Assembly (NCBI RefSeq): GCF_008271745.1
Contig: NZ_VKKZ01000020.1
Span: 496,001 to 560,000, forward strand
Direction of reading: 5' to 3'
Source: Rufibacter glacialis
GTDB taxonomy: Bacteria > Bacteroidota > Bacteroidia > Cytophagales > Hymenobacteraceae
DNA length: 64,000 nucleotides
Shown: positions 15,487 through 62,710 of the stretch, in pieces
How positions within the stretch are numbered: position 1 is the stretch's first letter
How the letters are laid out: the number at the start of each line of letters is the position of its first letter
Notes under the pieces: generated by a model
Database searches by the model: none
What the model saw: the letters and a program-made list of their open reading frames with translations, nothing else
What the model was told of the DNA's origin: nothing
Translations under genes and position numbers: made by a program

Positions 15487-16197
15487 ATGATCAATAAAGT
15501 AGTACCAGATGCGGCCGCGGCCTGCCATGATATCCCAGACGGGGCCACGCTTATGCTGGGCGGCTTCGGCCTGTGCGGAATCCCCGAAAACGCGATCCAG
15601 GAAATCCTGCGCAAAGGCATCAAAGACCTTACCTGTATCTCTAACAATGCCGGGGTAGATGATTTCGGGATTGGGCTGATGCTGCAAAAACGGCAGGTGA
15701 AGAAAATGATCTCCAGCTACGTGGGCGAGAATGCCGAATTTGAGCGCCAGTTGCTCTCGGGGGAGCTGGAGGTGGAATTAATTCCACAGGGCACCTTGGC
15801 GGAGCGCATCAGAGCCGGTGGCGCCGGCATACCGGCCTTTTTCACGCCGGCCGGCTACGGCACCGAGGTAGGCGAAGGCAAAGAGAGCCGCGAGTTCCAC
15901 GGCAAGATGTATTTGATGGAAACCTGGCTCAAAGCTGATTTTGCCTTGGTAAAAGCCTGGAAAGGCGATACGGCCGGCAACCTCATCTACAAGGGAACCG
16001 CCCGCAACTTCAACCCCATGATGGCCACCGCCGGTAAGATCACCATTGCCGAGGTAGAGGAACTGGTGCCCGAAGGCGAACTGGACCCCAACCTGATCCA
16101 CACCCCCGGCATTTACGTACAGCGCATCTTCCAAGGTAAGGACTACGAGAAACGGATTGAGCAGCGGACTGTTCGGCAGGCGAAGCCTGTCTCTTGA
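15487..16197 (+). CDS. scoA: 3-oxoacid CoA-transferase subunit A
   Basis: Subunit A of succinyl-CoA:3-ketoacid CoA-transferase, which activates acetoacetate with succinyl-CoA in ketone-body or short-chain acid use. The 236-residue protein shows the family-I signature [13 protein letters not shown] and the later [22 protein letters not shown]. The ATG at 15487 (MINKVV) is preferred to an upstream ATG giving ten unconserved residues. The stop TGA is followed at once by a GATGTGGAGATTTGG-type low-complexity tract, and the partner subunit gene comes 587 bases later instead of adjoining. Confidence 0.94.
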
Positions 16198-16260
16198 TGT
16201 GGAGATTTGGAAATTAGGAGATGTGAGGATGTGTGGATGGGAGGATGTGGGGATTGTAAA
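16198..16260. repeat. Left inverted low-complexity edge of the four-helix unit
   Basis: A G/A/T tract with almost no C, built from variants of GGATGTG and GGAGATTTGG. It begins on the base after the scoA stop codon. Its reverse complement resembles the tract at 16678-16772. Confidence 0.8.
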
Positions 16261-16279
16261 AACAGGTTAAACGATCATC

Positions 16280-16636
16280 ATGGAGAAACAACAGCCGCAG
16301 AATCTCATTTTAGATCTTACCCTTGACTTTTCTGTATCGGTTATAGAGTATGCAGAACAGTTGGAGGCCCAGAGAAAATTTGTGGTGGCCAACCAGCTCC
16401 TGAAAAGCGGAACTTCTATTGGAGCCAATGTAAAGGAGGCGCAAAATGCCGAAAGCAAAGCAGATTTCATCCACAAGTTCAAAATAGCAGCCAAAGAAGT
16501 GGAAGAGACTGAGTACTGGTTAATGCTTTGTCACCGCGCACCAACCTATCCAAATCCAGACCATCTTCAAAAGGATCTCCATTCCATCAAAAAGATCATC
16601 TCCAAAATCATCATCAGCTCAAAAACAAAAAATTGA
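16280..16636 (+). CDS. Four-helix bundle protein (23S rRNA intervening-sequence family)
   Basis: The 118-residue, largely helical protein has the family core LLKSGTSIGANVKEAQ followed by KADFIHKFKIAAKEVEETEYWL. Homologues are encoded by intervening sequences in some 23S rRNA genes, and the fold is shared with Avd of diversity-generating retroelements. Function in Bacteroidota, where many scattered copies exist, is unknown. The gene is AT-richer than scoA and scoB, has the basic end IISSKTKN, and is enclosed by inverted low-complexity repeats that together with it fill the whole scoA-scoB gap. This placement suggests a mobile or site-seeking unit; that is inference. Confidence 0.9.
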   Translation: MEKQQPQNLILDLTLDFSVSVIEYAEQLEAQRKFVVANQLLKSGTSIGANVKEAQNAESKADFIHKFKIAAKEVEETEYWLMLCHRAPTYPNPDHLQKDLHSIKKIISKIIISSKTKN

Positions 16637-16677
16637 AAGCAGCAGAAAAAGGGCATTGAAAGAAGACAAAACTTAAT

Positions 16678-16772
16678 TTCCACATCCCCACATTTTCAAA
16701 TCTTCAAATCTCCAAATTCTCTCATCTTCAAATTTACACATCTTCAAATTTACACATCTTCCCATCTTCAAA
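16678..16772. repeat. Right inverted low-complexity edge of the four-helix unit
   Basis: A C/A/T tract with almost no G, made of roughly 10-base variants of TCTTCAAATT, with two near-identical TTCAAATTTACACATC units. It starts CCACATCCCCACATTTTC, which inversely matches the GATGTGGGGATTG end of the left edge. It stops about 12 bases before the scoB ATG. Confidence 0.8.
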
Positions 16773-16784
16773 TTGACGAATGAA

Positions 16785-17441
16785 ATGAGTCTAGATAAAC
16801 ACGGCATTGCCAAAAGAATAGCCCAGGAATTGGAAGAAGGCTTCTATGTGAACCTGGGCATCGGGATTCCTACTCTGGTGGCCAATTATATCCCGGAAGG
16901 AATGAACGTGGTCCTGCAGAGCGAGAACGGGCTGCTGGGCATGGGCCCCTTCCCTAGCGAGGACGAGGTAGACCCCGACCTCATCAACGCCGGCAAACAA
17001 ACGGTCACTACCCTGCCTGGGTCAGCCCTTTTCAGCTCAGCGGAGAGTTTTGCCATGATCCGGGGAGAACACGTGCACCTGACCATTTTGGGGGCCATGG
17101 AAGTCTCTGAGCGCGGTGACATTGCCAACTGGAAGATACCCGGCAAGATGGTGAAAGGCATGGGCGGCGCCATGGACCTGGTGGCCTCCGCCAAAAACAT
17201 CATCGTGGCCATGCAGCACACTTCCAAAGACGGCCAATCCAAGCTCTTGACCGACTGCTCCCTGCCCATCACGGGGCTGCGGTGCGTGAAGAAGATAGTG
17301 ACGGATCTGGCGGTGCTGGAAGTAACACCAGACGGCTTCAAATTGCTGGAGCGGGCTCCCGGCGTGACCGTGGAGCAGATCAAAGCCGCTACCCAAGGGA
17401 AACTTTTGGTGGAAGGCGAGATTCCTGAAATTAAAGTGTGA
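16785..17441 (+). CDS. scoB: 3-oxoacid CoA-transferase subunit B
   Basis: Subunit B carries the catalytic glutamate that forms the enzyme-CoA thioester, seen in [13 protein letters not shown]. The 218-residue product also shows [17 protein letters not shown] near the N-terminus and [19 protein letters not shown] in the middle. The ATG at 16785 is preferred over the TTG at 16773, which lies in the flanking repeat. Both subunits look intact, so the inserted unit did not break the enzyme, but it may uncouple co-translation of the two chains. Confidence 0.94.
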
Positions 17442-62630: not shown

Positions 62631-62710
62631 AATTAGGAATTAGGAATTAAGAATTAGGAATGGTTTGCGCCATTTTTAATTCTTAATTCCTAATTCTAAA
62701 TTCTTAATTA
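62631..62710. repeat. AATTAAGAATT hairpin unit between fsa and the small gene
   Basis: Perfect inverted arms GGAATTAAGAATTA (62643-62656) and TAATTCTTAATTCC (62677-62690), with further units AATTAGG outside and ATGG/CCAT inside. It occupies nearly the whole 90-base gap; its outer edge adjoins the fsa stop codon. Confidence 0.9.

Follow-up and report, generated by a model that had tools for sequence, protein, structure and literature searches.

In other bacteria, most of the copies that we compared look alike: the repeats are peculiar to each lineage, but the two repeat arms around the gene match. This suggests an element that spreads and settles in operons, much as other inserts do in rRNA genes. 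We read the feature between scoA and scoB of Rufibacter glacialis as akin to the 23S rRNA intervening sequence (IVS) but placed between cistrons: an S23/Avd-like gene between inverted arrays, with arms matched by template switching, a loop-out in the mRNA and occasional moves. We give this reading a probability of about one-half.

The unit between scoA and scoB

The window, that is, the whole stretch of 64,000 nucleotides that we analyzed, contains the following features.

15487..16197, + strand: scoA, 3-oxoacid CoA-transferase subunit A, the upstream gene (open reading frame; TIGR02429, 277.7 bits)
16196..16255, + strand: left arm, a degenerate octamer array (no C in 16198-16260)
16280..16636, + strand: four-helix gene (S23 / 23S rRNA IVS protein family), 118 aa (PF05635, TIGR02436, AlphaFold2 model, Foldseek)
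16675..16773, + strand: right arm, a degenerate octamer array complementary to the left arm (no G in 16678-16772)
16785..17441, + strand: scoB, 3-oxoacid CoA-transferase subunit B, the downstream gene (ATG at 16785; TIGR02428, 325.5 bits)
62631..62709, no strand assigned: gene-free related hairpin between a transaldolase-like gene and a small gene, made of a period-7 array at 62631-62661 and its inverse array at 62672-62709

The sequence-only reading had described 587 bp between the two sco genes, and this spacing was recovered exactly (scoA ends at 16197 and the ATG of scoB is at 16785), as were the C-poor left edge (16198-16260, no C in 63 bases), the G-poor right edge (16678-16772, no G in 95 bases) and the intact four-helix open reading frame (16280-16636, 118 aa). 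The unit is also more AT-rich, a trait that had been claimed for the gene between the edges (G+C content of 0.399 versus 0.568 in scoA, 0.563 in scoB and 0.534 in the window). The edges had been called low in complexity, which is right as to their base bias, but they are more exactly arrays of degenerate 8-mers, both with a period of 8. The left edge does lie at the scoA stop; however, its array starts at 16196, within the stop codon and not on the base after it. The unit extends from the upstream stop codon to shortly before the downstream start.

The inverse match that had been noticed between the two edges withstood shuffling: the left arm aligned to the reverse-complemented right arm with a local score of 19.0, whereas shuffled sequences averaged 8.6 (P value = 0.0005; the highest of 2,000 shuffles scored 20.0). 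Controls of the same geometry at 399 other places in the window scored at most 15.0. A repeat search set the arms at 16196-16255 and 16707-16766, with a length of 60 nt and a complementarity of 73%. Elsewhere in the window, a perfect TCAC tetranucleotide array of 8.2 copies occupies positions 693-725.

The protein belongs to the S23 family, with scores above the curated cutoffs of both profiles (PF05635, 73.2 bits against a cutoff of 33.8; TIGR02436, 87.9 bits against 24). An AlphaFold2 model of the monomer, built from 27 aligned window and locus proteins, predicted four helices with a mean pLDDT of 93.2, and in a Foldseek search it matched the S23-family structures 2RLD and 2GSC (2rld_B, E value = 6.1e-07, TM-score = 0.84); the modeled fold is the four-helix bundle of solved S23 proteins. 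Avd of the diversity-generating retroelements (DGRs) (4DWL, 8UB7/8UB8) may have the same fold: the TM-score to 4dwl_E was 0.74, but the E value was only 0.18 and the identity 16%. A likeness of PF05635 to Avd is also noted in passages of a DGR survey (PMC10053308). Within the 27-protein alignment, S46, N50, E53 and E76 do not vary, and Q39, I47, D62 and L81 are nearly invariant.

In this gene, synonymous sites approach saturation (pS of 0.46 to 0.94 across 37 pairs), and dN/dS lies between 0.03 and 0.12 in the 23 of 37 pairs where it was computable, the remaining pairs being saturated. Judged by their divergence, orthologues of the window gene are under strong purifying selection. PF05635 matches were present in 90 of the 118 Bacteroidota genomes sampled (87 above the cutoff), with at most 16 copies per genome. 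A tree of 132 proteins had strong support on 48 of its 129 inner branches, and most of its forks are poorly resolved.

Paired arms and operon junctions across copies

All four PF05635 matches in the window's genome lie between inverted arrays, with arm scores of 19 to 31. Their motifs, read by eye, differ from copy to copy: GAATTAG-like at the putative sucA|sucB junction, GAGTCCT-like at the putative tldD|tldE junction, the octamers of the window at scoA|scoB, and a GAATGATT/GAGAGAGT-like motif at the fourth. We compared each copy's own arms with arms exchanged among copies, using 72 of the 73 copies from this genome and its relatives, one copy at a contig end having been dropped. Own arms had a mean score of 20.5 and permuted arms one of 9.0 (maximum of 10,000 permutations, 10.65). 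The own pair exceeded the 95th percentile of exchanged arms in 65/72 copies, the other 7 falling below it, and in 34/72 it exceeded the highest of 72 control pairs taken from farther out. The own right arm was the top-ranked partner in just 34/72 copies, because related copies have motifs in common.

We also scanned named genomes. The best 80 loci were kept, and five were dropped for short flanks; the remaining 75 had an own-arm mean of 16.0 (permutation maximum, 10.27), with 50 above the 95th percentile of exchanged arms and 25 not. Three of these loci (L129, L142 and L198) duplicate loci of the first set and were included in the 75-locus test but removed from later counts, and three copies of the gene (L013, L034 and L058) have a stop inside the profile match yet were retained in the arm comparison. 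By their record titles, the loci above the 95th percentile include Omnitrophica, Desulfosarcina, Desulfobacteraceae, KSB1, Gracilibacteria, Chlorobiota, Ignavibacteriales and one alphaproteobacterium, although many named loci are metagenome bins whose taxon labels may be wrong. The loci titled SAR324 and Patescibacteria were not above it, and those of Methanophagales and Gloeocapsopsis had flanks too short for arm scoring.

Across the 168 copies examined, 124 arms had a match score of at least 14, and a clear period was seen in 100 of them (period 7 in 82, period 8 in 17 and period 12 in 1), against 2/124 control segments. The unit is compact, about 0.45 to 0.6 kb, with the gene flanked on both sides by arrays of 7- or 8-base repeats that are inverted relative to each other. 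G outnumbered C in the left arm in 100/114 arms (reversed in 7 and neutral in 7), a count drawn from the first set and the named loci, without the extra thiolase-junction set. Fixed terminal repeats do not describe these ends: motifs differ between copies, and exchanged arms score near background. At L134, L155 and L175, the flanks hold repeats in both directions around the gene and resemble nested hairpins, not one arm pair. An S23-family protein of Xanthomonas is reported as a homopentamer in passages of PMC4990558; each arm here has 4.0 repeats at the median, most of them 7 bases long, a number that neither supports nor excludes a scheme in which five subunits read five repeats.

The gene usually points the same way as its surroundings: both neighbors were co-oriented with it in 130 of the 147 copies for which both were called, out of the 168 examined. 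Junctions recurred, namely, thiolase/acyl-CoA dehydrogenase (22 in the cluster), fadB/fadA (20), scoA/scoB (10, with L055 and L087 grouped separately), sdhA/sdhB (10), tldD/tldE (7) and mraY/murD (6); names other than scoA and scoB are our reading of the sequences and not profile matches. Neighbors were called by the length of their open reading frames, some of them wrongly. L055 and L081 looked miscalled at scoAB, and L055 was relabeled by hand before the comparison of proteins with arms.

At the thiolase/acyl-CoA dehydrogenase junction, a small gene that we take to encode a GIY-YIG nuclease-like protein replaces the four-helix gene in the window's genome (L116) and in G012 (L115), G007 (L119) and G013 (L222), and this junction seems to take other cargo as well. 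Heptamer-like arrays adjoin the GIY-YIG-like gene at L119 and L222. Two genomes of Flavobacterium columnare carry a four-helix gene between guanylate kinase and nicotinate-nucleotide adenylyltransferase, tabulated within phage regions; the table passages of that source do not mention arms (PMC5524665).

Exchange, movement and gene-free hairpins

Next, we looked at the scoA/scoB junction in 16 congeners. It is filled in 10 (gaps of 448 to 587 bp) and empty in 6 (gaps of 21, 23, 27, 33, 88 and 154 bp), which supports the single unit of gene and edges that the sequence-only reading had supposed. That reading had also expected empty sites with exact ends. Empty junctions exist, but no exact insertion end was established, and no target duplication was established when filled and empty junctions of different species were set side by side by eye. 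In G013, the sequence in the gap of 33 bp resembles the terminal part of a right arm of type A and may therefore reflect a loss.

Two arm types occupy the filled junctions, type A (GATTTGGA-like) in six genomes and type B (AATGTGCT-like) in four. In a 31-protein tree, the 11 scoAB proteins of both types, from the ten congeners and from G021, which belongs to another genus, group in a single clade (100/100) that splits into A (97/95) and B (99/94). An independent origin of the two types at this junction is not favored, given the single clade. Simple vertical inheritance does not fit either: a three-gene host tree with 16 tips (4 of 13 inner branches strongly supported, with one gene nearly missing in G009 and G013) requires 8 changes to account for the states A, B and empty, and the sister congeners G015 and G004 have different arm types. 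These observations indicate that scoAB units were exchanged or replaced. Moreover, the four-helix gene that lies ahead of a scoB-like gene in G019 is very different (L087, 21% identity to that of the window), and the junction was therefore probably entered at least twice.

Two further observations bear on this junction. Beside all six type A units and in the empty G005, the C terminus of ScoA reads RTVRQA or is a longer tail of this sort; it reads RTVRQN in the empty G012 and RTTR or RTVR beside the four type B units. Moreover, an array in the window's genome (L258, G000:C19:485394-485479) mixes type A and type B octamers, which suggests that the two types of scoAB arm are members of the same octamer family.

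We then asked how arms compare between copies at different junctions in different genomes. Arm similarity averaged 0.362 for pairs with protein identity of at least 65% (21 pairs, drawn from 23 copies and hence not independent, with L150/L151 left out) and 0.160 for pairs below 40% (2,977 pairs), and it was 0.147 between copies within one genome (58 pairs). Among the 21 close pairs, 8 come from one five-locus group (L134, L144, L146, L155 and L175), and 7 were at background arm similarity (at most 0.25). Examples include fadB/fadA of Kaistella with putative purC/purF of Chryseobacterium and sdhA/sdhB of Mucilaginibacter with fadB/fadA of Pedobacter. The proteins of L150 and L151 are 86% identical, with an arm similarity of 0.57. 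Related proteins at different junctions thus tend to share arm motifs, and the gene and its arms seem to travel together.

In the clearest pair, L189 and L193, DNA homology ends near the outer ends of the arms (-58 to 418 and -55 to 415); in the other unit pairs shown, it extends beyond the arm ends or stops short of them. Few moves between junctions were seen, and the unit holds no transposase.

Arrays of this kind also exist without the gene. In 460 kb of the window's genome (5.32 Mb in all), there were four gene units and five gene-free inverted array pairs. The same 460 kb held 46 period-7/8 arrays, with 9 inverted neighboring pairs and 1 direct pair, the scoAB unit being counted twice among the 9 and the closest hairpin merged. 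The hairpin at the transaldolase junction has two readable complementary arms in 16/16 congeners, falling into about five sequence classes by eye, and its own arms scored 19.8 versus 12.8 for exchanged arms (n = 16; none of 20,000 permutations as high; own arm the best partner in 8/16).

G012, in which no PF05635 gene was detected, carries the transaldolase hairpin and both repeat patterns (GAATTAG and TGAGTYY), which indicates that present-day hairpins do not need the gene. TGAGTYY occurs in 16/16 congeners, G012 included, where a reversed control is uninformative because the pattern reads alike backwards. The GAATTAG array search found no match in 3/16 genomes; its control was clean for G000 and G012 (0 or 1 matches) but not for G014, G015 and G008. 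Longer perfect GAATTAG arrays in the window's genome lie at C1:418728, C10:630895, C10:700432, C10:864932, C19:220744 and C19:699342.

The mobile unit with inverted edges proposed by the sequence-only reading is therefore retained in part. Filled and empty junctions and the matched arms of most copies agree with it, but the edges are not fixed repeats and similar arms exist gene free. The pattern named in advance as counting against that reading, with the unit in place in all relatives and other copies of the gene lacking edges, was not seen.

How the arms stay matched, and what the unit may be

Own arms matched better than exchanged arms also among copies at one junction. The means were 24.4 versus 16.1 at scoAB (n = 11, P value = 0.00015; own arm the best partner in 3/11), 16.8 versus 10.0 at thiolase/acyl-CoA dehydrogenase (n = 33, none of 20,000 permutations as high; 9/33) and 18.2 versus 16.0 at tldD/tldE (n = 7, P value = 0.035; 2/7). 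At scoAB, the own-arm advantage was not significant within type A alone (P value = 0.09) or type B alone (P value = 0.50). In the 11 scoAB units, 73 to 100% of locally aligned arm positions pair, local alignment being a measure that favors high values. With synonymous sites near saturation, arms free of constraint would be expected to match no longer, but these arms still pair.

To see at which level the match is kept, we counted the mismatches. There was no excess of G·U over A·C: 145 versus 141 in 130 units (fraction of 0.51, CI of 0.44 to 0.57; the measure is uncalibrated on known RNA stems), 128 versus 139 on the 114 arms and 11 versus 24 in the transaldolase hairpins. Selection on RNA should favor G·U, and a process acting on DNA is strand symmetric; the missing excess points to template switching at the DNA level. 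Such switching is a known mutational process that homogenizes the two arms of inverted repeats, and passages of PMC8604942 and PMC8794818 describe it for yeast genes and rRNA hairpins with short spacers, whereas the arms here are about 0.4 kb apart around a gene. In the predicted RNA fold of the window unit, the arms pair in both the minimum free energy and centroid structures. The energy of the whole region was not better than that of shuffles (z = 0.38; 11 of 20 shuffles folded as well).

Among known systems, the 23S rRNA IVS is close in anatomy. That of Coxiella burnetii, according to passages of PMC4990558, was 444 nt long as first described, contains an S23 open reading frame, has a 28-bp terminal stem and is excised by RNase III. 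Like it, the unit is a small element of sporadic distribution with a four-helix S23 open reading frame and complementary ends able to form a stem, which the window unit has. Unlike it, the window unit lies between scoA and scoB and not within a 23S rRNA gene, copies in general stand at junctions of protein genes in operons, and the ends are arrays of 7- or 8-mers with lineage-specific motifs. In addition, the same passages describe the Coxiella open reading frame as in reductive evolution, in contrast to the purifying selection seen here.

Two repeat systems share other traits. Intergenic TAACTGA heptamers occur in Beggiatoaceae, Cyanobacteria and some Bacteroidetes; as described in passages of PMC4679880, they are tandem and intergenic as here, and in the main genome mostly just before start codons. 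They differ in having one fixed motif and in being direct repeats, of which that genome has only one inverted instance. The terms four helix and intervening sequence are absent from the main text of that paper. The BrickBuilt minisatellite MITE of Porphyromonas gingivalis, as described in PMC4596501, resembles the unit in its tandem repeats, small inverted ends, strictly intergenic position and occurrence in Bacteroidota, but its 23-nt repeat unit forms the body of the element and not two arms flanking a gene.

In the reading that we prefer, DNA polymerase switching templates would copy one arm onto the other and so keep them complementary, and slippage would spread new motifs through the repeats, so that both arms may drift together. 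In the polycistronic mRNA, pairing of the arms would leave the gene in a loop that reaches from the upstream stop to near the downstream start, with the operon still working, and RNase III may cut the arm stem as it does in rRNA. From time to time the unit would move, arms included, to another operon junction. The loop-out between cistrons is proposed because the anatomy is IVS-like and the arms pair in the predicted fold; this step is weakened by the missing G·U excess, which speaks against selection on an RNA stem.

The same arms could be a processing or stabilizing hairpin in the operon mRNA. Selection for the RNA stem, helped by ordinary compensatory mutation, would then keep them complementary, and the four-helix gene would be a host regulator of that mRNA. 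The co-orientation of 130/147 copies, the pairing in both predicted folds, the span from the upstream stop to near the downstream start, the low dN/dS and the excess of G over C in 100/114 left arms would all agree with this. The mismatch counts do not (145 versus 141, and 11 versus 24 in the transaldolase hairpins), and relatives at one junction differ in whole motifs while both of their arms match. As the sole cause of the complementarity, RNA-stem selection is not favored, given the absent G·U excess, and we consider this account of the unit improbable. The arrays might instead belong to a genome-wide family of short intergenic repeats, comparable to the cyanobacterial heptamers and at times paired in inverted orientation, among which the four-helix gene merely lodges. 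The 46 arrays and 9 inverted pairs in 460 kb, the array pairs lacking the gene and the presence of TGAGTYY in all 16 congeners, including G012, fit this idea, but arm motifs follow the protein lineage more than the genome (0.362 versus 0.147) and all four units of the window's genome stand between matched arms; we regard it as rather unlikely.

A DNA transposon or MITE of the classical type, bounded by terminal inverted repeats and mobilized by a transposase acting in trans, would likewise have inverted ends, filled and empty sites and related arms at different junctions. The copies have no conserved end sequence and hence no terminal repeats in that sense, the unit neither encodes a transposase nor has an established target duplication, and gene orientation is nonrandom; we think an element of this type very improbable.

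A wider form of our preferred reading would place the unit in a widespread mobile class. Its ends would be recognized by their shape and their 7- or 8-base periodicity, the Avd-like protein would accept any inverted pair of arrays, the arms would renew each other by copying, and the IVSs of 23S rRNA would be the branch that landed in rRNA. We hold this extension to be doubtful; if true, the gene-free hairpins would be nonautonomous members of the class. In the open-access literature (titles and the starts of abstracts, among the matches listed, a scope apart from subscription journals and preprints), we found no paper that describes four-helix genes together with inverted arrays between the genes of operons. 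The comparison gives PF05635 a common anatomy, recurrent addresses in operons (putative fadB/fadA and sdhA/sdhB, and scoA/scoB) and a testable link to the rRNA IVS and the Avd fold, and the arms offer a natural system for following the concerted evolution of two arrays on either side of a gene.
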